From: a bacterium
GTDB taxonomy: Bacteria > UBP18 > UBA7526
Direction: 5' to 3'
NCBI GenBank assembly: GCA_030615855.1
Contig: JAUWYL010000012.1
Location: 1 to 36,827 of the forward strand
Length of the DNA stretch: 36,827 nt
The first letter of the stretch is position 1. Each line of letters opens with the position of its first letter. Below the pieces are notes generated by a model, which worked only from the letters and a program-made list of their open reading frames with translations, made no database searches and was not told the DNA's origin. The position numbers and the translations under genes are program-made. Positions 27,016 through 36,364 of this stretch are shown here, piece after piece.

Positions 27016-29916
27016 CTAAAAAACTACCGCCATTCCCAGCCAGGGCCGAACATCCTCGTAGTCATCGAAGCCATGGGCTAAGGCAAGTTCCAGGTTCAGA
27101 GGAATATGATAGAAGATGAAGGATTTCAGGCGAATCCCAGCTCCGGCATCAGTATCGAAGTCACCGATGGATAGTTTCCCTTGGAACCAGGCAGTACCAC
27201 TATCCACAAAGAGCATGCCATATAGCCTGTCAAGATAGAAGAAGGAGAGCTTCTTTCCCATATCCTGTAGGATGGGAAAGCGATACTCTGCGCTCCAGAA
27301 GCCCATCTTATCTCCGCGAAAAGAGTTATATTCATAGCCTCTCAGGTTCTCCATCCCTCCTAAGAGGAAGGCGCCCTGGCTCAGGTTATGTCCCTTACAG
27401 AAGCCCCCCATGGCTCTCAGGGCCAGGGTATGACGCTTATAGAGGGGAATATATTCTCGCCAATCCAGGGTATATTCGTTGAAGTTGAAATCGCTCCCAT
27501 AGGATTCATCTGCTAAAGCATAAGAAAGGATGACCCGTCTCCCTTGCGGGTTGATATCCATGTCCAGAGTAGGTTTTATCCGATAATGCATGAGGCTCGC
27601 TCCCCAGGTAGCGATATGGCCATCATCTGGAAGATTGGGAGGATTAATGTCCCTGTCGGTATCTATGTCATCAACGAAGTAAGCCTCATAATCTAATAAT
27701 AGATACCCTATCGGTACCAAGGGAAAGCCAGCACCTACTATTCCTCCCCGCCTCCTCTCCCAGTAATCATCGGTCAGATTATCCTGATTGGGACCCTCAA
27801 TATAGTTGGTGTAACCAAGAGAGTAATCATAAGCACCAACTAGGATATTGGGAAAGAACTGACGATTGAGATAGTAGGCATAGCCCGATACCCCCCCATA
27901 CCCCCCATAGCCAATAGCGCTTTGGAAGATATGTTTCCCCATGACATCTTGGGCGTAGCCCATGACGCTCAAGCCCAGGGGCATCCATAGAATGGGCCTT
28001 ATTCTCGGTCGATACTTTCTTACCGGGTATTCCTCCCTCTCCTCTGCTTCAGGATTATTACTTGAAAATGAATCGGGGAATCGGTGTATTTCTGTATCGG
28101 TGTAACGGCGCGTCGGTGTATCGGTGTAATTCTCTTCTACTCCCTTACTCCGATACTCCGTTACTCCCTTACTTCCTTCTTCCTTCTCTAAGACCTTAAT
28201 GTCATAGCCATCTGCGCTATAAGCGGAGAAGACGACCCCCTCTCTCCCAGAAGAGTAGGAAGGCTCAAAGGCTCCCCCAATGACATTGGTCAGTTGTTTT
28301 ACCCTCTTTGTTTCTAAATCGAGTTCATAGATGTTGAAGATTCCCGTCCTATCTGAGGAGAAGATGATTCTCTTGCCATCCTTTGACCAGGAGGGATCCC
28401 GATCATCCGCTTTATCATTGGTAAGGGAGACTATTTCTGATCCATCGACATTCATTAGATATAGATCCCTCTGGCCGTCCTTGAATCTGGAGAAGACGAT
28501 CTTCTTTCCCTCTGGTGAGAACTTGGGAGTGAAGTACTGAGTGTAGTCCTCGGTCTTTGTAAGATAGATAACCTCTTCTGTTTCCAAACTAAAGAGGCAA
28601 ATATTCGTCTTCCCTCCTTCATTCTTGATAAAGACAATAGTTTTTCCATCTGGTGAGAGATGGGGCTCCTTGGCCCTCATCCCCCGGGTGAGGCGCCTCT
28701 TCTTATTTACCTGCGTCCAGTCAATGAGATAGAGATCACTATAATAGGAACCCCGCCAGTTATACCAATTCTTAGAGTAGACTAACTTCTCTCCATCATA
28801 GGAGAAGGAGGGATCGGGATTGACTTTCCCCGCCAAGCACCTATGTTTCTCACTATCCAGGTCCCAGAGATAGAGCCTTAATCTCTCATAGTCCTGACCC
28901 TTATTGGAGACAAAGGCTATCTCATTTTTAGTTGGCGAGAAGGTAGGATGCCTATCACACCATCCCCGGGAGACCAGGTCCTTGACATTCTCATCAGGGG
29001 TGATATGCTTAGTCTCTTCCCTATACTTCTTCTCCAGATCCTCCTTCCACTCCTTATAGAGCCACCTGGGAGTATCCTTCACTCGGTAATACATATTTCT
29101 CTTTAGGGACAGATAATTATGGCCTTTTCCCTCTAAGATGGAGGCGATACCTTCTTCCCCGTGCTTCTTCTTCATATATTTGGTGAGAGAATAGCCCTGA
29201 TTGTAGACCATCTCATTCCCTAAGCCGTTCTTCCCATAGACCCCCATCCGATTATAGGTGAGTAGCTTATCCTCTAATGTTGCACTCCTTAGGATCATAT
29301 CTCGATGGCTATCCCAGAATTCCCCTCCGCCTTCTTCGCTGGTATCCTGGGCCAATCCCTCAATGAACCAAGAGGGGACGAATTCACTGGGCCCGGGGAA
29401 TCCCGGACCGAATACCTTAACCAGCCTTCTGGGAAGACCGCTCATGATATCTAGATGGACGATGTGAGTAAACTCGTGAGGGATGACCGTCTCCAGCCAC
29501 TTATGGGTTCCCCTCAAGGAAATATCCATATGGGTGAGCCAGATGACAATCCTCTGATTTGCGGAATCGGCAAATCCATTGGCATAATCATCAGTATCTA
29601 AGATAATGATGTGGGTCTTGGCCTCTGGCTCATGGCCCAGTCTCTTGGTAATCGGTCCATAGCATCTCTCCGCAATCTGGGCTACATCCTTAGCAACGTC
29701 TGTATGTTTTCTCTTATCAAAGTAGACCAGAAAATGAGGGGTCTCCATGACATACCACTTTATCTCTGGATGGTTGAAGGGAGACCAGGGAACCTGCCCC
29801 AGGATAATTTCCTCTGGGGTCTTAGGAATTAAATTAGGGGATAGAAGATTCTGAGCAAGTATATTCTGGGAAAAGAAGAGGACTATTAAGACTAAAGTAA
29901 AAAATATTTTTTTCAT
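27016..29916 (-). CDS. Secreted fusion: peptidase-MA-like domain, TolB-type propeller and BamA-type barrel
   Basis: 966 residues from ATG 29916 (MKKIFFTLVLIVLFFSQNILAQ, signal peptide; AAGGTG upstream is supplied by a repeat). Domain 1 (about 50-290) has a gluzincin zinc site, HEFTH at 147-151 with Glu in WFIEGLAQ, as in peptidase MA. Domain 2 (about 315-590) has PD40/TolB propeller repeats (SPDGKTIVFIKNE, SPEGKKIVFSRFKDGQRDLYLMNVDG, SKDGKRIIFSSDRTG). Domain 3 (about 660-966) is an Omp85-like barrel with LLGGMENLRGYEYNSFRGDK, the RGY region of BamA/TpsB proteins, and a terminal Phe. It lacks visible POTRA domains. A repeat-coded linker (28073-28176) joins propeller and barrel. Likely in the outer membrane with protease and propeller in the periplasm. 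Confidence 0.85.
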   Translation of the reverse strand: MKKIFFTLVLIVLFFSQNILAQNLLSPNLIPKTPEEIILGQVPWSPFNHPEIKWYVMETPHFLVYFDKRKHTDVAKDVAQIAERCYGPITKRLGHEPEAKTHIIILDTDDYANGFADSANQRIVIWLTHMDISLRGTHKWLETVIPHEFTHIVHLDIMSGLPRRLVKVFGPGFPGPSEFVPSWFIEGLAQDTSEEGGGEFWDSHRDMILRSATLEDKLLTYNRMGVYGKNGLGNEMVYNQGYSLTKYMKKKHGEEGIASILEGKGHNYLSLKRNMYYRVKDTPRWLYKEWKEDLEKKYREETKHITPDENVKDLVSRGWCDRHPTFSPTKNEIAFVSNKGQDYERLRLYLWDLDSEKHRCLAGKVNPDPSFSYDGEKLVYSKNWYNWRGSYYSDLYLIDWTQVNKKRRLTRGMRAKEPHLSPDGKTIVFIKNEGGKTNICLFSLETEEVIYLTKTEDYTQYFTPKFSPEGKKIVFSRFKDGQRDLYLMNVDGSEIVSLTNDKADDRDPSWSKDGKRIIFSSDRTGIFNIYELDLETKRVKQLTNVIGGAFEPSYSSGREGVVFSAYSADGYDIKVLEKEEGSKGVTEYRSKGVEENYTDTPTRRYTDTEIHRFPDSFSSNNPEAEEREEYPVRKYRPRIRPILWMPLGLSVMGYAQDVMGKHIFQSAIGYGGYGGVSGYAYYLNRQFFPNILVGAYDYSLGYTNYIEGPNQDNLTDDYWERRRGGIVGAGFPLVPIGYLLLDYEAYFVDDIDTDRDINPPNLPDDGHIATWGASLMHYRIKPTLDMDINPQGRRVILSYALADESYGSDFNFNEYTLDWREYIPLYKRHTLALRAMGGFCKGHNLSQGAFLLGGMENLRGYEYNSFRGDKMGFWSAEYRFPILQDMGKKLSFFYLDRLYGMLFVDSGTAWFQGKLSIGDFDTDAGAGIRLKSFIFYHIPLNLELALAHGFDDYEDVRPWLGMAVVF
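28073..28176. repeat. Thirteen phased octamers inside the fusion gene
   Basis: 8-nt units run without slippage from 28073: TCGGGGAA, TCGGTGTA, TTTCTGTA, TCGGTGTA, ACGGCGCG, TCGGTGTA, TCGGTGTA, ATTCTCTT, CTACTCCC, TTACTCCG, ATACTCCG, TTACTCCC, TTACTTCC. Two unit families (TCGGTGTA and TTACTCCG) adjoin. It encodes a roughly 35-residue linker with no stop. Confidence 0.95.
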
Positions 29917-30018
29917 CCCGCACCTTTTTGTATTCATTTTCTACCTTTGCTTAAAAGTGAGGGATTTGAAGGGAGAAATATAACAAAATACGGGCTGAAT
30001 ATGGTAAAAGGTGCGGGA
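29916..30018. repeat. Element with 13-bp terminal inverted repeats, copy B
   Basis: TCCCGCACCTTTT (29916-29928) is exactly inverted by AAAAGGTGCGGGA (30006-30018). TTTGCTTAAAAGTGAGGGATT inside resembles the end of copy A (20440-20525). It fills the gap between the two genes and gives the downstream gene its AAGGTG and start region. Confidence 0.85.
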
Positions 30019-30025
30019 TTCACGC

Positions 30026-31246
30026 TCAAAATCTTCTCAAGATTAAAGAGGCATTGCTTCCTCCATCAGCAAATCCATTTATCAGGACCGCCCCTATCTT
30101 TTTCGCCCTTACCTCATTGGGAACATAGTCTAGGTCGCAGGAAGGATCCTTTTCTCCATAATTTATAGTGGGAGGAATGAAACCATTCTCTATTGCCAGA
30201 CAGGTGCTTATTGCCTTCAGGCCGCCAGAGGCATTGAAGTAGCCGATGAATGAAGAAAGGGAACTGACCGGAATACCTTTACCAAATACTTTCTTAATTG
30301 CCTCTGTCTCAGACCTATCTAGAATAGGGGTGGAATTCGCTGCAGCAGAGATATAACTAATCTTCTCCTTAGAAATTGAAGCATCCTCTAATGCCAACTC
30401 CATGGCCCTCGCCATTTCTTCGGGATCGCTATCATAATCACTTATTCCAGGATTGGAGGAACTCATCCCATAACCTATAACTTCAGCATATATCTTGGCT
30501 CCCCTTTTTTGGGCGTGTTCCAGGGTCTCCAAGACTAAAATCCCTCCCCCCTCCCCTAAAACCATGCCATTTCTTCTCTTATCAAATGGCCGTGAACCCT
30601 CAGGATAATCTTTATTCTTTAAGGGAGATAGTATCCCTAAATGGGAATAGGTATGGAAGAGTATCCAGGAGAGCTCATCTACCCCACCAGTCAGGATGAC
30701 CTTTGCCTTACCATGCCTCAAGAGACTGTAGGCATAACCTATGGCTCCTTCACCCGTTGTTCCCTTCTGAGTAATGGTGGAGTTGGGGCCGGTAATTCCC
30801 AGTTCTATCGAGATGTGGCCAGCAGGAGCATTGGGAACGGTATTGGGAAAGAGCATGGGATTTACTCCACTTGGGCCATGCTCAATGAGTCCTCTATGAA
30901 AAGCCTCTGTGGTCTCCAGGCCGGTAAATCCGCTTCCCAATATGACTCCACACTCAGGTGAATTTTCGGGAGTAATTTCTAAGTTAGCATCCTTCAGGGC
31001 TAAGACAGCAGCGGCAACCGCAATCTGAGAGTCCCGATCCATCCTTCTGATCTTCATAGGATTGATATAATCCTTAGGGTTGAAGTCAGTGACCTCTCCT
31101 CCCAGACGAGACTTATATTTTGAGGTATCGAACCGAATAATCTCTTTTATTCCCGATTTTCCCTCTTTAAGGTTCTTTAGAAAGGTCTCCTTTCCAATCC
31201 CAATGGGTGAGATTACCCCTAATCCAGTAACGACTACTCTATTCAT
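30026..31246 (-). CDS. Catalytically dead ketosynthase, chain-length-factor-like
   Basis: 406 residues aligning end to end with the neighbouring FabF-type enzyme (TGLGVISPIG, RPFDKRRNGMVLGEGGGILVLE, NGFADGGSNASLIL). All catalytic positions are changed. TACSSS becomes QKGTTG (Cys to Gly162), NAHGT becomes SAAAN (His to Ala, about 302), and VGH becomes IGY (second His to Tyr336, with the Lys before it also lost). Fold residues, such as the C-terminal GG-x-N loop, are kept, so it is a maintained partner rather than a pseudogene. In type II polyketide and aryl-polyene systems a dead KS (KS-beta/CLF) dimerises with the active KS and sets chain length. The ATG overlaps the stop of the active KS as ATGA. 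Confidence 0.85.
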   Translation of the reverse strand: MNRVVVTGLGVISPIGIGKETFLKNLKEGKSGIKEIIRFDTSKYKSRLGGEVTDFNPKDYINPMKIRRMDRDSQIAVAAAVLALKDANLEITPENSPECGVILGSGFTGLETTEAFHRGLIEHGPSGVNPMLFPNTVPNAPAGHISIELGITGPNSTITQKGTTGEGAIGYAYSLLRHGKAKVILTGGVDELSWILFHTYSHLGILSPLKNKDYPEGSRPFDKRRNGMVLGEGGGILVLETLEHAQKRGAKIYAEVIGYGMSSSNPGISDYDSDPEEMARAMELALEDASISKEKISYISAAANSTPILDRSETEAIKKVFGKGIPVSSLSSFIGYFNASGGLKAISTCLAIENGFIPPTINYGEKDPSCDLDYVPNEVRAKKIGAVLINGFADGGSNASLILRRF

Positions 31247-32463
31247 TCCTTATATTTCCCGAAGGCAAGAACCGTATTATTTCCACCAAAGGCAAAGGAG
31301 TTTGAGAGGGCAATATTTATTTCTTGCTTCCTTGCTTTGCCCGGAACATAGTTTAAGTCACATTGAGGGTCTTCAGTTTCATAATTTGCCGTGGGTGGTA
31401 CCATGCTATTTCTGATCGCTAAAGCAGTTGCTACCGCCTCTATTCCTCCCGCAGCTCCCAGACAGTGACCCACCATGGACTTGGTAGAACTCACCGGTAT
31501 CTTATATGCCCTTTCTCCAAAGACCTCCTTTATGGCTAAGGTCTCTGTCTCATCGTTGAAGGGGGTGGCGGTGCCATGGGCATTGATATAATCGACATCC
31601 TCTGGTTCTATTTTGGCATCCCTTAAGGCCTCTCTTATCGCCTGAATAGCTCCTCTTGCCTTTGGATGGGGAGCGGTCATATGATAGGCATCCCCACTTA
31701 GGCCATAGTTTAAAAACTCACAGTAGATTTTAGCGTCTCTATTTTTGGCATGCTCTAATTCCTCCAGGATAAGGATGCCCGCTGATTCCCCTAAAGAAAG
31801 GCCGGTTCTATTCTTATCAAATGGTCGGCACCTATCCTTATCCACCACCCTCATGGAGTTAAATCCAGAGTAGGTTAACTGACACAGGGCATCGCTTCCT
31901 CCAGTAATCATAACAAGTGCTTTTCCATCCTTAATTAGATCAGCAGCATACCCAATGGATGTTGCAGAAGAAGAACAGGCAGTTACAATTGTGGAACGAG
32001 GCCCTTTCAAAGAAAACTCTTTAGCAATATAATCCGTAGTAACGCAGGGGGGATGGGAGATAAGCAAGGAAGGCTTAGCTTTCTTTAAGTCTTTAGTGAG
32101 AAGGGCTCTATGGTATTCCTCAGCCTCAAACATCCCTCCTGCCCCGGCTCCCAAAAGGACACCGATTCTTTCTCTATTCTCTATCTCCAAATCGAGCCCT
32201 GAATCCCTTATCGCCTCTTGGGCCGCGATCACTCCCATTCTATCCGTCCGGGACATCCTTTTCAACTTCTTGGAAGGAATGTATTTCTCTGGATGGAAAT
32301 CCTTCACCTGAGCCCCGGTCTGGGTCCTATGCTCTTTAGTATCAAAGAGGTCTATTTTGCCAATCCCACACTTCCCCTGAATGAGATTATTCCAGTACTC
32401 CTCCTTATTCTTACCAATGGCACATACTGCCCCCAGACCAGTTATTACTACTCGTTTCGCCAT
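31243..32463 (-). CDS. fabF: Beta-ketoacyl-ACP synthase (FabF/KS-alpha type)
   Basis: 406 residues, thiolase-fold condensing enzyme. The complete Cys-His-His triad is visible: C163 in VTACSSSATS, H296 in NAHGTATP and H333 in MVGHCLGAAGG with K328. Also present are GAGAGGMFEAEE and CRPFDKNRTGLSLGESAGILILEELEHA. It performs decarboxylative Claisen condensation of malonyl-ACP with acyl-ACP. It sits between fabZ (1-nt gap) and the dead ketosynthase (4-nt overlap), so a KS heterodimer is expected. It could still be the housekeeping KASII; the partner gene argues for a KS-CLF role. Confidence 0.92.
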   Translation of the reverse strand: MAKRVVITGLGAVCAIGKNKEEYWNNLIQGKCGIGKIDLFDTKEHRTQTGAQVKDFHPEKYIPSKKLKRMSRTDRMGVIAAQEAIRDSGLDLEIENRERIGVLLGAGAGGMFEAEEYHRALLTKDLKKAKPSLLISHPPCVTTDYIAKEFSLKGPRSTIVTACSSSATSIGYAADLIKDGKALVMITGGSDALCQLTYSGFNSMRVVDKDRCRPFDKNRTGLSLGESAGILILEELEHAKNRDAKIYCEFLNYGLSGDAYHMTAPHPKARGAIQAIREALRDAKIEPEDVDYINAHGTATPFNDETETLAIKEVFGERAYKIPVSSTKSMVGHCLGAAGGIEAVATALAIRNSMVPPTANYETEDPQCDLNYVPGKARKQEINIALSNSFAFGGNNTVLAFGKYKE

Positions 32464-32464
32464 C

Positions 32465-32911
32465 TCACTTCCCTTTTGTGAAGACCAGTTCTCCTTGAGC
32501 GCAGATCTCTTTATCTACCCTTGCTTCTCCTCTGACCTTGAAGAGATTGGCTAATCTCTGGACAACCTCTACATTAATCTCCAATCGGTCTCCAGGCCTG
32601 ACCGGTCTCTTGAACTTGATCTCTTTTATTCCTGCTAAATATCCCATTCTCTCTTCTGGCTTTACTTCCTTTCTAATCGTCTTGCTTCCCACCACAATGG
32701 CTGCCACCTGAGCCATAGCCTCTATAATGAGAACCCCGGGCATGATGGGCTCTTCCGGAAAATGGCCTGAGAAAAACTCCTCATTGATGGTAACATTCTT
32801 TATTCCCGTTCCCTTCTTGCCCGGCTCAAGGTTAATGACCTTGTCCACTAATAGAAAAGGATAGCGATGAACGAGAATTTTTTGGATCTCGCCAATATCT
32901 AAAATTTTCAT
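32465..32911 (-). CDS. fabZ: 3-hydroxyacyl-ACP dehydratase (FabZ)
   Basis: 148 residues, hot-dog fold. Catalytic His lies in HRYPFLLVDKV and Glu in MPGVLIIEAMAQVAA, with the GHFPEEPIMPG loop between. It dehydrates 3-hydroxyacyl-ACP to trans-2-enoyl-ACP. ATG 32911 overlaps the ACP stop (ATGA). With the ketoreductase encoded two genes upstream it would give enoyl products; no enoyl reductase gene is found in this cluster. Confidence 0.95.
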   Translation of the reverse strand: MKILDIGEIQKILVHRYPFLLVDKVINLEPGKKGTGIKNVTINEEFFSGHFPEEPIMPGVLIIEAMAQVAAIVVGSKTIRKEVKPEERMGYLAGIKEIKFKRPVRPGDRLEINVEVVQRLANLFKVRGEARVDKEICAQGELVFTKGK

Positions 32912-33171
32912 TCACTTTCTCCTTTTTTCTTTTTAACGTATTCTGCTAAAGTATTAACTGAGGTAAAAATCTCTTTTCCCACCTCTTCGTCCTTTACTTT
33001 GATCCCGAACTCCTGCTCCAGACCAACCACCAGTTCCAAAGCATCTATAGAATCGAGCCCCAGGCCGGTTCCAAATAAGGGAGCGGCGCTATCGATCTCC
33101 TCGGGTTTTATCTCTAACTTCAATCTCTTAACAATGAGTTCCTTAATCTTGTCTTCTAATTCTTCAGCCAA
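32908..33171 (-). CDS. acpP: Acyl carrier protein
   Basis: 87 residues, acidic, four-helix ACP. The phosphopantetheine site is Ser41 in LGLDSIDALELV. The DSIDAL form, with Ile after the Ser instead of the Leu of housekeeping DSL ACPs, is frequent in carrier proteins of special type II systems but not exclusive to them. The C-terminus is charged (KKKKGESE). The gap upstream to fabG (33172-33356) is a repeat region. The start is ATG 33171 with GGGAGAAAT upstream. Confidence 0.93.
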   Translation of the reverse strand: MAEELEDKIKELIVKRLKLEIKPEEIDSAAPLFGTGLGLDSIDALELVVGLEQEFGIKVKDEEVGKEIFTSVNTLAEYVKKKKGESE

Positions 33172-33187
33172 TTTCTCCCTCCTTCAT

Positions 33188-33360
33188 CCACAGATACTCA
33201 CAGATTATCTACAGATTGGCACCTACCTACGCCAAGGCTTTTCGGCAGGCAGGCAGATCACAGATAGCATCTGCGGTCATCTGCGTCTTGATCTGCGGAC
33301 ATTGCTTGATATTCATGCTCTCTCGGATGCCAGCGAAGCGCATCCGGCATCTGCGTCTAC
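33188..33360. repeat. CACAGAT/ATCTGCG repeat with palindromes between fabG and acpP
   Basis: ACAGAT words recur every 10-11 nt (33189-33218), then ATCTGCG words in inverse sense (33269-33298 and 33349-33356). Embedded palindromes include CGGATGC...GCATCCG (33324-33346). It reaches the fabG stop. No gene is seen. Confidence 0.7.
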
Positions 33361-34103
33361 ATGGCGAGGCCACCATCTATTCTTATTACCTGACCGGTGA
33401 TATAGTCTGCCTCCTCACTAACCAAAAAGATTACTACCTTTGCTACTTCCTCTGGAGTGCCCACTCTCTTTAATGGCGTTATCTTCAAAATCCGGTCCAG
33501 CATCTCTTTAGGCATCTTCTTAACCATCTCGGTATCAATGAGTCCTGGAGCAAGGGCATTAACCCTTATGCCAAAAGGAGCCAGTTCTCTGGCTAAAGAT
33601 TTGGTGAAACTGATCATCCCTCCTTTAGCAGCGGAGTAGTTCGTTTGACCCGCAGTGCCAGAAATGGCAGAGACAGATGAGATATTGACAATGTTTCCGC
33701 TCCTCTGACCAATCATAACTCTCGAAACCGCCTTAGAGCAGTTGAATGTTCCTTTGAGATTGACATCTATTACCTTATCCCACTCTTCCTCATTCATAAT
33801 CATCAAATATTTATCAATGTTAAGCCCCGCATTATTAATCAGGATATCAATCCTTCCAAATCGCTTGTTAATTTCCTCCACCATCCTATTCACTTCTTCC
33901 AATTTAGAGACATCTGCCTTATGACTAATCGCTTCCCCGCCCTTTTCCTTTATTCTTTTTACCACTTCTTCTGCGGCATCCTGGCTATGGAGATAATTGA
34001 CACAGACCTTTGCCCCTTCCCTTGCCAGAGCAAGAGAGATTGCTCTTCCAATCCCCCTTCCTCCACCAGTCACCAGGGCAACCTTTTCCTTAAGAAGTCC
34101 CAT
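33357..34103 (-). CDS. fabG: 3-oxoacyl-ACP reductase (FabG)
   Basis: 248 residues, classical short-chain dehydrogenase. The Rossmann motif TGGGRGIG, NNAGL, catalytic Ser in NIVNISSVSA and Y-x3-K in NYSAAKGG are all present, with a C-terminal IRIDGGLAM as in FabG. It reduces 3-oxoacyl-ACP with NADPH. It is the first gene after the promoter at 34159-34188 and heads fabG-acpP-fabZ-fabF-KS-beta. The TAG stop lies at the edge of the CATCTGCG repeat. Confidence 0.95.
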   Translation of the reverse strand: MGLLKEKVALVTGGGRGIGRAISLALAREGAKVCVNYLHSQDAAEEVVKRIKEKGGEAISHKADVSKLEEVNRMVEEINKRFGRIDILINNAGLNIDKYLMIMNEEEWDKVIDVNLKGTFNCSKAVSRVMIGQRSGNIVNISSVSAISGTAGQTNYSAAKGGMISFTKSLARELAPFGIRVNALAPGLIDTEMVKKMPKEMLDRILKITPLKRVGTPEEVAKVVIFLVSEEADYITGQVIRIDGGLAM

Positions 34104-34158
34104 ATCTCATTACCACAAAATAAAATTTAGACCAAGCACTTCGCCTGTCTAACTTAAA

Positions 34159-34188
34159 ATTATAACACAGGTCTGAGACAAAAATCAA
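34159..34188 (-). promoter_or_regulatory. Promoter of the fabG operon
   Basis: On the minus strand TTGATT (34188-34183) and a perfect TATAAT (34164-34159) are separated by 18 nt, and the leader is about 50 nt. It shows that the reductase/ACP/KS genes are transcribed separately from fabD. Confidence 0.65.
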
Positions 34189-34293
34189 TTATTTATTAGA
34201 CCAAACAATATTTAGCCATCTTCCAATCTTCGAAGATGCGAAGATACTACTGATTGGTATTATGAGGGCGCCCATTCGCTTGCCCCCTCTACT

Positions 34294-34344
34294 AAGAAAG
34301 CCCGAATAACAAGGTTCTCCCCGATTTATCGGGGAGGCTTTCTT
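34294..34344 (-). terminator. Terminator after the fabD-like gene with a palindrome in its loop
   Basis: On the minus strand AAGAAAGCC (34344-34336) pairs with GGCTTTCTT (34302-34294). The loop contains the separate hairpin CTCCCCGAT-TT-ATCGGGGAG (34317-34336 region), whose CCCCGAT...ATCGGGG word also occurs at 4501-4516. Confidence 0.65.
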
Positions 34345-34345
34345 A

Positions 34346-35263
34346 TTATAACGTGCTTAATGTACGGATTGTCTTTTCTAATGATGACAAATTATCTACA
34401 TTCAGGATCTTGACTTCGCGAGTTATCCACTGGACGAGTTGGGAGAGGACCTGGCCCGGACCAACCTCGATGAAGGTATCCACTCCTTCAGAAAGCATTC
34501 GGCGTATGCTTTCTTCCCAGAGAACGGGCTTCGTTATCTGCTTTACTAATATTTCTCTTACCCTTTCTTTATTTCTTAGGTAGTCTGCATCGAAGTGGGT
34601 AATTAGAGGAGTCTTGGGTTTCTTTATTTCAATGGACTCTAAATAAGAGGCCAACTTTTTGGAAGCCTTCTCCATCAGTTTGGTATGTAGGGGACTGGAA
34701 ACGTTTAAGGGGACGGTTTCTAAGGCATCTTTCTTGGCCAAATCTATCGCTTTATCTAAGGCACTTTTCTCTCCAGATATGACGAACTGTTTGGGAGAGT
34801 TATGATTGGCAATTGCTGTTCCAGATAATCGACAAATCTCTTCTATTTCTCTCTTATTTAATCCGATGATGGCTACCATTCCTCCAGGAACTTCCTGGAT
34901 CAATTCTCCTGCTTTCTTTGTTAATTTAAGCCCAGCCTCAAAACTCAAGGCTCTACTAGCCACTAAAGCAGTATATATCCCCAGGCTATGCTCTCCAATA
35001 ACATCAGAAGCGATTCCTCTCCCTTTCAATATCTGGTAAGTAGCGATACTTACTGTAAAGACCCCTAATTGGGCATTGAGGTCTTTATTTAACTCTTCTT
35101 CTGGCCCTTCAAAAGAGACTCTCGCTAAATCGAAGCCAAGAATCTCATCTGCTCTCTGAAATATCTCTCTTGCTTCTTTAAAATCATCATAGAACTCCTT
35201 CCCCATCCCCACATACTGAGAACCCTGACCGGGAAAGAGAAAGGCAATCTTAGATTTTGGCAT
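34346..35263 (-). CDS. fabD: FabD-like acyl transferase with altered substrate pocket
   Basis: 305 residues with the malonyl-CoA:ACP transacylase fold. FPGQGSQYVGMG oxyanion loop, nucleophile Ser93, catalytic His in SSPLHTKLM, NSPKQFVISG and EVGPGQVLSQLV are present. Two departures are visible. The nucleophile elbow is EHSLGI instead of GHSLGE. The invariant Arg that clamps the malonyl carboxylate in E. coli FabD (R117 in MRGKFMQE) is Ala118 here (KKAGELIQE). Loss of that Arg in the family usually shifts use to non-carboxylated acyl groups or to hydrolysis. The gene start ATG 35263 lies 14 nt inside the methyltransferase gene. A housekeeping FabD may be encoded elsewhere. Confidence 0.85.
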   Translation of the reverse strand: MPKSKIAFLFPGQGSQYVGMGKEFYDDFKEAREIFQRADEILGFDLARVSFEGPEEELNKDLNAQLGVFTVSIATYQILKGRGIASDVIGEHSLGIYTALVASRALSFEAGLKLTKKAGELIQEVPGGMVAIIGLNKREIEEICRLSGTAIANHNSPKQFVISGEKSALDKAIDLAKKDALETVPLNVSSPLHTKLMEKASKKLASYLESIEIKKPKTPLITHFDADYLRNKERVREILVKQITKPVLWEESIRRMLSEGVDTFIEVGPGQVLSQLVQWITREVKILNVDNLSSLEKTIRTLSTL

Positions 35264-36104
35264 AAGTGGTCTTGCTCACTCCAGGAACAAGGACCTTCCT
35301 GGCTGTTAGAAAATAGATGCCCTGGGCCCAGAGATTGAAATAATTCGTCCAGAACCTGTCCATTCTTCTCTCTGGAGAGGTTGGCTTTCCGATGACTGTC
35401 TCTATTCTCTTGAAGCCTGCCTTCAGTAAGAACTCTCTCAATATCTCTGATGAGAAGTCATAGAGGTGCATGGGCGGATGGAAGAGGTTGCGCCTCACCC
35501 CAAAGAACCTCAAGAACCTCTCTGCCGATATACTCTGGGGGACCCTGATGGCTAAGAGACCATCCTCTTTTAAGATCCTTCTCGCCTCTTTTAAGACTTT
35601 TAAAGGATGAGGAAGATGCTCCAGGACATAGAACATAGTGACAACATCGAAGTAGTTATCGCTAAAATCTGTCTTCTCTAAAGAGCCTTGCCTAACATTC
35701 AATCCCTTACTCTGGGCATACCCAACCGCTTTCTTAGAGATATCTATACCAAAGAGTTCCCATTTTTGGGGGTCCCATAACTCCAAGAATAGTCCCAATC
35801 CACATCCCATATCTAATAATTTCCCAGAAGAATATTTTCTCTCAATGTTTCTTTTTGTTTCCTCATATACTCTTCCCATCAATCTCGACCATTGAGAAAC
35901 GCTCTCCTCATCAGTGGAAAAGAAGTCATCATAGAACTCTAAGAGGTCCTCTTCTCTTGGCCGGGGATTAAGATAGATGAGGCCGCATCTCTTACATTCA
36001 ACGATCTTAAAAGAATTCTCAACGGTTACTATCCTTGTATTATCTGCCCCACATAGACCACAACTGACATATTCTAAGGTTTTGTTATAATTCCATTTAG
36101 GCAT
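35250..36104 (-). CDS. Zinc-ribbon class I SAM-dependent methyltransferase
   Basis: 284 residues from ATG 36104 (MPKWNYNKTLEYVSC). The reading frame extends upstream by 68 codons, but that DNA is repeat sequence, so the extension is rejected. The N-terminal C-x2-C...C-x2-C zinc ribbon (CGLCG...VECKRCGLIYLNPRP) is typical of methyltransferases acting in secondary metabolism and cell-surface pathways. SAM motif I is LLDMGCGLGLFLEL and the post-motif is VVTMFYVLEHLPHPLKVLKEARRILKEDG. It overlaps the fabD-like gene by 14 nt, so the two are likely made together; the acceptor could be a fatty or polyketide product. Confidence 0.88.
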   Translation of the reverse strand: MPKWNYNKTLEYVSCGLCGADNTRIVTVENSFKIVECKRCGLIYLNPRPREEDLLEFYDDFFSTDEESVSQWSRLMGRVYEETKRNIERKYSSGKLLDMGCGLGLFLELWDPQKWELFGIDISKKAVGYAQSKGLNVRQGSLEKTDFSDNYFDVVTMFYVLEHLPHPLKVLKEARRILKEDGLLAIRVPQSISAERFLRFFGVRRNLFHPPMHLYDFSSEILREFLLKAGFKRIETVIGKPTSPERRMDRFWTNYFNLWAQGIYFLTARKVLVPGVSKTTYAKI

Positions 36105-36112
36105 GGCACCCC

Positions 36113-36360
36113 AGTTAGGTGAGTTAGGTAAGTTAACTTTTGTATTTTCCCGTCTTTCGGTATACGTTGAAGGGTTGCGCCCGCCTTCCATAGTAATACT
36201 ATTACGGCGGACAGGCTGCTCGTTACGTTTTACGTTAATCAGTTGCGTTTTGTTACGAATGACGATAGACGACGGCCGAAACGAGCTTCGCAACCGCAAT
36301 CCGACCACCTACGGTGGATGGATTGACGATGGACGGCGAATTTACAAAAGTCTAGTTCCG
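36113..36360. repeat. Dense repeat block: GTTAGG units, 38-nt palindrome copy 2, CGTTACG words
   Basis: GTTAGGTGA and GTTAGGTAA (36115-36132) are the same units as at 3431-3475. The 38-nt palindrome copy 2 is at 36179-36216, and GTTACGT, TTTACGT and ATGACGA-type 7-nt words cover about 36222-36260. Further short inverted words (CTACGGTGGATGGATTGACGATGG region; AAAGT...ACTTT at 36347-36366) follow. There is no coding signal beyond a repeat-coded open frame. Confidence 0.7.
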
Positions 36361-36364
36361 AACT

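Follow-up and report, generated by a model that had tools for sequence, protein, structure and literature searches.

A seven-gene operon transcribed on the minus strand (36104 to 30026) is described here from a 36,827-nt stretch of bacterial DNA (the window), which is an entire contig (C7) of a genome from an uncultured lineage, candidate phylum UBP18 (GCA_030615855.1; 1.375 Mb, 93.6% complete). In order of transcription it encodes a methyltransferase (MT), a FabD-like acyltransferase (AT), a FabG-type ketoreductase (KR), an acyl carrier protein (ACP), a FabZ-type dehydratase (DH), an active ketosynthase (KSa), and a second, catalytically dead ketosynthase (KSb). On balance, the operon is rather probably where the carbon chain is built, at one end of a single ~40-kb cluster whose product is a specialised lipid delivered to the envelope. 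The cluster is best read as a ladderane-type core for polyene assembly and tailoring, coupled to an envelope-delivery module of the aryl-polyene-like kind, and from sequence its product is probably a polyene lipid that is modified and destined for the outer membrane.

All seven open reading frames are intact, and family models agree with the gene set named in the original prediction, which was made from the window alone (Table 1). The NCBIfam cut-offs were passed with the models for AT (FabD), FabG, FabZ, and KSa (FabF); KSb scored below the fabF equivalog cut-off (418 vs 494 bits). The start codon of the MT gene is backed by its orthologue in the relative G002. KSa retains all four catalytic residues (Cys, His, Lys, His), and at the corresponding FabF positions KSb carries Gly, Ala, Ser, and Tyr, so that the loss of Cys, both His, and Lys was read correctly at the outset. 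The ratio of non-synonymous to synonymous substitution rates (dN/dS) was 0.17 for KSb and 0.11 for KSa, indicating purifying selection. A decaying dead KS gene was rejected on this value and, because gene order is also kept in the contigs of relatives, the operon is not attributable to chance or decay.

The best sequence match among solved structures was PDB entry 9S5H, where KSa hits chain B and KSb hits chain C. Both chains share 94-95% identity with Ca. Brocadia loci, and the residues of chain C (V/N/Y/G/K/E) form the pattern published for Kuste3606 (PMC2649909); the literature search found no paper describing 9S5H. A KS tree was built from 180 sequences, with the short E. coli ApeC and other aryl-polyene (APE) KSs left out. 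In this tree the KSb clade is monophyletic (n=82, support 1.0), contains 9s5h_C, and is composed of sequences from UBP18, Nitrospirota, Omnitrophota, Planctomycetota/anammox, and a few others; the KSa core clade (n=66, support 0.983) contains 9s5h_B. Each of the two window KSs has Nitrospirota sequences as its sister group. Cys and both His are absent from 82/82 KSb sequences, and Lys is kept in 77 of the 82 but replaced by Ser in UBP18. The dead KS thus has a clade of its own apart from FabF, where the original prediction had allowed for a place among ordinary FabF paralogues. By KSb, the closest named genomes (86-92%) include bacterium UBP18_UBA7526, so that the lineage is taken to be UBP18. 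When E. coli ApeC and other APE KSs were added, ApeC was pulled into KSb on a branch of length 3.5 and support for the KSa core dropped to 0.34, so the tree without them was relied on; the APE KSs fell outside the KSa core clade, and the short ApeC was placed only via that very long branch. The KSa and KSb trees agree (Mantel r 0.93 over 65 loci, 0/2000 permutations as high), an agreement owed partly to shared species history. The AlphaFold2 model of KSb (406 aa) has a full-length 3-ketoacyl-ACP synthase II (KASII) fold with a predicted TM score of 0.90 and low confidence around residues 107-137. Foldseek does not discriminate the KSb type, because its top matches were all generic KASII folds; 9S5H was absent among the matches listed. 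At L084, L088, L089, L105, L119, and L123, extra KS genes lie beside the KSa/KSb set and group with Streptomyces KS and chain-length factor (CLF) rather than with the KSa clade.

Coordinates 30026-36104 hold only part of the cluster, which extends rightward onto contig C18. The right end of the window and the end of C18 share an exact 141-bp overlap, this 141-mer is unique in the genome, and in G002 contig C74 carries the NHL gene and breaks off within the MT gene just after it, which contig C43 takes up again after a gap of a few bases; for these reasons the window operon was placed at one end of a ~40-kb cluster. The C18-side genes were read at loci L130 and L134, and the relevant ones have the same direction and stand ahead of the window operon. 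Their order begins with a LolA-like gene, an LpxL-type acyltransferase, LolA, flavodoxin-ferredoxin, radical S-adenosylmethionine (SAM) enzyme 1, a 4HBT thioesterase, CrtI 1, and CrtI 2. It continues with an AAT-type acyltransferase, radical SAM 2, radical SAM 3, a flavin mononucleotide (FMN)-binding protein, radical SAM 4, and PadR, and ends with radical SAM 5, an FMN reductase, a third, amine-oxidase-type flavoprotein beside the two CrtI-like oxidoreductases, a flavodoxin, a U32 protein, an MMPL exporter, and the NHL gene, after which the window operon follows. All five radical-SAM enzymes have a B12-binding domain. The cluster order is conserved in UBP18 relatives as far as their contigs show it. 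Phytoene synthase was not found in a genome search, and C40 carotenoids are therefore an unlikely purpose for the CrtI-like genes, which were judged unlikely to be carotenoid desaturases.

Two features of a ladderane-type (Kuenenia/Desulfotalea-like) type II fatty-acid synthesis (FASII) locus were found, namely a KS and a non-canonical KS of the kuste3605/3606 lineage in the window and linked phytoene-desaturase-like (two CrtI-like) and radical-SAM (five B12-radical-SAM) genes on C18. In Kuenenia, Rattray et al. (2009) described phytoene-desaturase-like and radical-SAM genes together with a non-canonical FabF, and they reported similar clusters from Desulfotalea, Geobacter, and Pelobacter (PMC2649909). 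The anammox locus has the order ACP-FabZ-KSa-KSb-CrtI-like-B12-radical-SAM and the Omnitrophota locus the order KSb-FabG-ACP-FabZ-KSa-CrtI; in Omnitrophota and Thermodesulfovibrionia, KSb is accompanied by FabG, ACP, FabZ, KSa, and often a CrtI-like gene. Nitrospirota loci L052 and L053 (KSa-KSb-CrtI-4HBT-rSAM5-rSAM2-rSAM3-rSAM1-CrtI, rSAM denoting radical SAM) hold almost the UBP18 suite. A second Nitrospirota locus, L177 (G060:C2:196000-215999), has a different KS pair with LpxL, CrtI/CrtN-like, FMN reductase, U32, and PadR genes, and the single UBP18 cluster seems to unite genes of the two Nitrospirota loci.

The original prediction had also suggested an envelope destination, and this is supported by the LolA, LpxL-type acyltransferase, 4HBT thioesterase, and MMPL exporter elsewhere in the cluster. 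These are related to aryl-polyene proteins, the thioesterase to ApeK (pairwise E-value 4e-19), the LpxL domain to ApeJ (8e-14), MMPL to ApeM (9e-13), and LolA to ApeL (1e-7). Pfam and pairwise comparisons together thus identified the thioesterase, LolA, MMPL/RND transporter, and acyltransferase module of aryl-polyene clusters, and the window ACP has a match to an aryl-polyene ACP of E. coli (E 5e-19). A half-size ApeC-type CLF with ApeO/ApeR KSs was not present, KSb having 406 aa and ApeC about half that size. The supply of an aryl starter was likewise missing, with no aromatic ammonia lyase (PF00221) in the genome and no AMP-binding acyl/aryl-ACP ligase among the cluster proteins scanned; the MT did not match ApeB. 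The active/dead KS pair had been assigned to the polyketide or polyene kind, and this is supported; an aryl polyene proper was rejected on the missing half-size CLF, cluster ligase, and genomic ammonia lyase, and an aromatic type II polyketide synthase (PKS) because Streptomyces KS and CLF fall outside both the KSa and KSb clades. No cyclase was found among the cluster proteins scanned.

The AT (ACYLTRANSFERASE) was aligned with E. coli FabD and with the FabD of the same genome. The Ser92/His201 dyad, Gln11, and Gln250 are kept, the GHSLGE motif reads EHSLGI, and the malonyl-binding clamp residue Arg117 is replaced by Ala in both the window and G002, so that the AT departs from FabD at Arg117 and agrees with it at Ser and His. 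Arg117 is retained in the genome's own FabD and in the FabDs of Brocadia and Omnitrophota. In the FabD and PKS AT families, loss of the malonyl-binding Arg speaks against malonyl loading; the substitution would argue for a starter without a carboxyl group or for an editing role. No close solved relative of the MT was found, and its identification as AmxMT1 was rejected because AmxMT1 was not recognised among the PDB matches.

A housekeeping fatty-acid synthesis (FAS) set in the classical order plsX-fabH-fabD-fabG-acpP-fabF-rnc is located on contig C27 of the same genome, and exactly two FabD-family and three KS-family matches were obtained genome-wide. Because of this set, the suggestion that the window carries the organism's only or housekeeping FAS operon was rejected. 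The genome search proposed in the original prediction recovered fabD, fabF, acpP, and fabH on C27, but not fabI or fabK; E. coli FabI matched only the two FabGs, and the search covered neither FabV nor FabL nor other types. No candidate for the housekeeping enoyl reductase thus came to light, and its gene may lie in the missing 6% of the genome.

The following scheme is proposed. KSa and KSb would pair as a heterodimer, as suggested by shared ancestry and by orthology to the anammox pair co-deposited as 9S5H, with KSa condensing malonyl units on the dedicated ACP and KSb forming part of the cavity and setting chain length. In each round FabG would reduce and FabZ would dehydrate, leaving one double bond, and the chain would stay a polyene because no enoyl reductase was identified in the cluster; this agrees with the earlier suggestion, from KR and DH without an enoyl reductase in the operon, that the product would likely be a polyene or unsaturated. 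The probable task of the Arg-less AT is to load a starter without a carboxyl group or to edit the ACP, and housekeeping FabD would provide malonyl-ACP. The CrtI-like pair, the third flavoprotein, and the five B12-radical-SAM enzymes with their flavodoxin and ferredoxin partners may desaturate, isomerise, methylate, or cyclise the chain. Next, the 4HBT thioesterase together with the LpxL-type acyltransferase would transfer it onto an envelope lipid, to be carried to the outer membrane by the MMPL and Lol-like proteins.

To our knowledge, ladderanes are known from anammox bacteria only, and there is no evidence for them in UBP18. The KSa/KSb, CrtI-like, and B12-radical-SAM families shared with anammox kuste3603-3608 and 2802-2805, and the four radical-SAM and two phytoene-desaturase-like genes of the Kuenenia FASII loci (PMC2649909), would fit a single-locus counterpart of the dispersed anammox loci that makes true ladderane (linearly fused cyclobutane) lipids. 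We regard this as very unlikely, since the same enzyme families are present in Nitrospirota, Omnitrophota, and deltaproteobacteria, D. psychrophila has no ladderanes (PMC2649909), and antiSMASH "ladderane" clusters of many metagenome-assembled genomes (MAGs) outside the anammox bacteria, including Omnitrophota and Desulfobacterota, have no known ladderanes and no assigned function (PMC9902471). Polyunsaturated hydrocarbons were found in D. psychrophila (PMC2649909), and together with the common KS/dead-KS, CrtI, and radical-SAM logic and the thioesterase they suggest an anaerobic route that supplies ordinary membrane lipids with polyunsaturated fatty acids or hydrocarbons, as proposed in 2009 for Desulfotalea and Kuenenia. 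This is rather unlikely here, as the dedicated MMPL/LolA/LpxL-type module and the five B12-radical-SAM enzymes speak for a product that is more modified and directed to the envelope. An aryl-polyene-type pigment with unusual tailoring would account for the thioesterase, LolA, MMPL, LpxL domain, ACP, KR, DH, MT, and KS/dead-KS logic in common; it is made unlikely by the ladderane-type clades of both KSs, the full-length KSb, the lack of ligase and ammonia lyase in the proteins and genome scanned, and the failure of the MT to match ApeB. Least credible, and highly improbable, is a second FASII operon of the ordinary kind, with KSb a degenerate FabF paralogue: FabG, FabZ, and ACP are generic, the KS folds are nearest FabF, and FabI/FabK were not found, but a separate initiation and elongation set lies on C27, KSb is monophyletic across phyla with its Cys and His losses universal and its dN/dS low, and linkage to CrtI-like and radical-SAM genes is conserved.

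Several points weigh against a modified polyene lipid delivered to the envelope. LolA and MMPL are large families, and the similarity to aryl-polyene proteins is moderate. Relatives of LpxL, LolA, and MMPL were not found within 10 kb of related non-UBP18 loci at E 1e-3, many of the contigs being short; the tie of the envelope module to the KS pair is therefore seen in UBP18 only, LpxL in L177 aside. The 9S5H deposition is itself the source for the pairing of chains B and C as a heterodimer, and part of the concordance of the KS trees has the other origin given above. The missing enoyl reductase says less than usual about a polyene, because FabI and FabK were not found genome-wide, and double bonds could be reduced by a CrtI-like enzyme or another flavoprotein. 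Clusters of the KSa/KSb clade have no known product, and expression of anammox genes in E. coli yielded neither ladderanes nor intermediates (PMC4790861). A more specific version of the envelope-lipid reading is rather unlikely: in it, a lineage outside Planctomycetota would use ladderane-like assembly and radical-tailoring machinery and aryl-polyene-like outer-membrane delivery, all from one cluster, to make a polyene lipid of an undescribed structural class that radical enzymes have cyclised or otherwise tailored.

Table 1. Features of the window operon and its neighbours.
Feature	Coordinates	Strand	Support
MT, SAM-dependent methyltransferase, N-terminal CxxC..CxxC zinc-ribbon-like stretch	35250..36104	-	Pfam PF13489/PF08241
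AT, FabD-like acyltransferase	34346..35263	-	TIGR00128 286 bits, above cut-off
FabG-type ketoreductase	33357..34103	-	TIGR01830 316.7 bits vs cut-off 297.8
ACP, DSIDAL phosphopantetheine site, PRK09184 / aryl-polyene ACP type	32908..33171	-	NF006617 74.4 bits, above cut-off
FabZ-type dehydratase	32465..32911	-	TIGR01750 178 bits, above cut-off
KSa, active ketosynthase, kuste3605 / 9S5H chain B type orthologue	31243..32463	-	Cys/His/Lys/His present; clade with 9s5h_B
KSb, dead full-length ketosynthase, kuste3606 / 9S5H chain C type orthologue	30026..31246	-	clade with 9s5h_C
HExxH-type protease region, TolB-like propeller, and Omp85 barrel in one fused protein	27016..29937	-	PF07676, PF01103
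NHL-repeat protein, C-terminal part, spans join to C18	36365..36827	-	exact 141-bp end overlap; same order in G002

Gene contacts within the operon had been described as ATGA overlaps or 1-nt gaps. This holds for KSb/KSa and FabZ/ACP (4-nt ATGA overlaps) and for KSa/FabZ (1-nt gap), and not for MT/AT, where the overlap is 14 nt and is not ATGA. The repeat-filled gaps reported around fabG were confirmed at 185 and 242 nt, with short repeats that are dispersed elsewhere in the genome; such repeats occupy 33172-33356 and 34104-34345 beside fabG and 36105-36364 upstream of MT. The same gaps are just 11 and 46 nt in G002, and the repeats beside fabG are therefore lineage-specific. Long gaps in G002 sit elsewhere, at FabZ-KSa and KSa-KSb. 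The HExxH/TolB-like/Omp85 gene also lies directly downstream of KSb in the UBP18 relatives L045 and L047, and its role in the cluster is putative.

Ladderane biosynthesis is a long-standing puzzle on which earlier work focused on scattered anammox genes, with no ladderanes obtained in E. coli. The UBP18 cluster and its Nitrospirota sister bring the shared KS/dead-KS, CrtI-like, and B12-radical-SAM core together in one place outside anammox, which helps to tell shared machinery from anammox-specific parts and makes a small set of genes available for reconstitution. From the aryl-polyene-like delivery module an envelope lipid is predicted, whose location is testable, and the Arg-less AT predicts an unusual starter.

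The kind of cluster is already known from Kuenenia/Desulfotalea-like FASII loci. A literature search found no published report of the UBP18 cluster; new with respect to the literature searched are its occurrence in UBP18, the single locus with an aryl-polyene-like delivery module, the Arg-less AT, and the Nitrospirota sister relation. Aromatic type II PKSs (Streptomyces KS/CLF) likewise pair an active KS with a dead full-length KS; they are a separate lineage, and the UBP18 cluster has KR and DH and no cyclases. Aryl-polyene clusters (apeA-R, E. coli CFT073; PMC8253772) resemble it in their related thioesterase, LolA, MMPL transporter, LpxL acyltransferase domain, ACP, and KR/DH/KS logic, and differ in KS lineage, in having a half-size CLF and an acyl-ACP synthetase, and in lacking CrtI or radical-SAM enzymes. 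The antiSMASH "ladderane" clusters of non-anammox MAGs (PMC9902471) are of the same general class, with no envelope module described in the accessible portion of that source. The Nitrospirota loci L052/L053 (G060) share the sister KSa and KSb; their thioesterase and three of their four radical-SAM enzymes have 43-56% identity to those of the cluster, and they are without AT or MT. The Kuenenia/Brocadia loci (kuste3603-3608, kuste2802-2805) have orthologous KSa/KSb, the ACP-FabZ-KSa-KSb order, and CrtI-like and B12-radical-SAM enzymes, but in Brocadia the genes are scattered over several loci, whereas UBP18, which is not an anammox host, has one cluster with five radical-SAM genes and adds the Arg-less AT, MT, thioesterase, LpxL-type acyltransferase, LolA, and MMPL.

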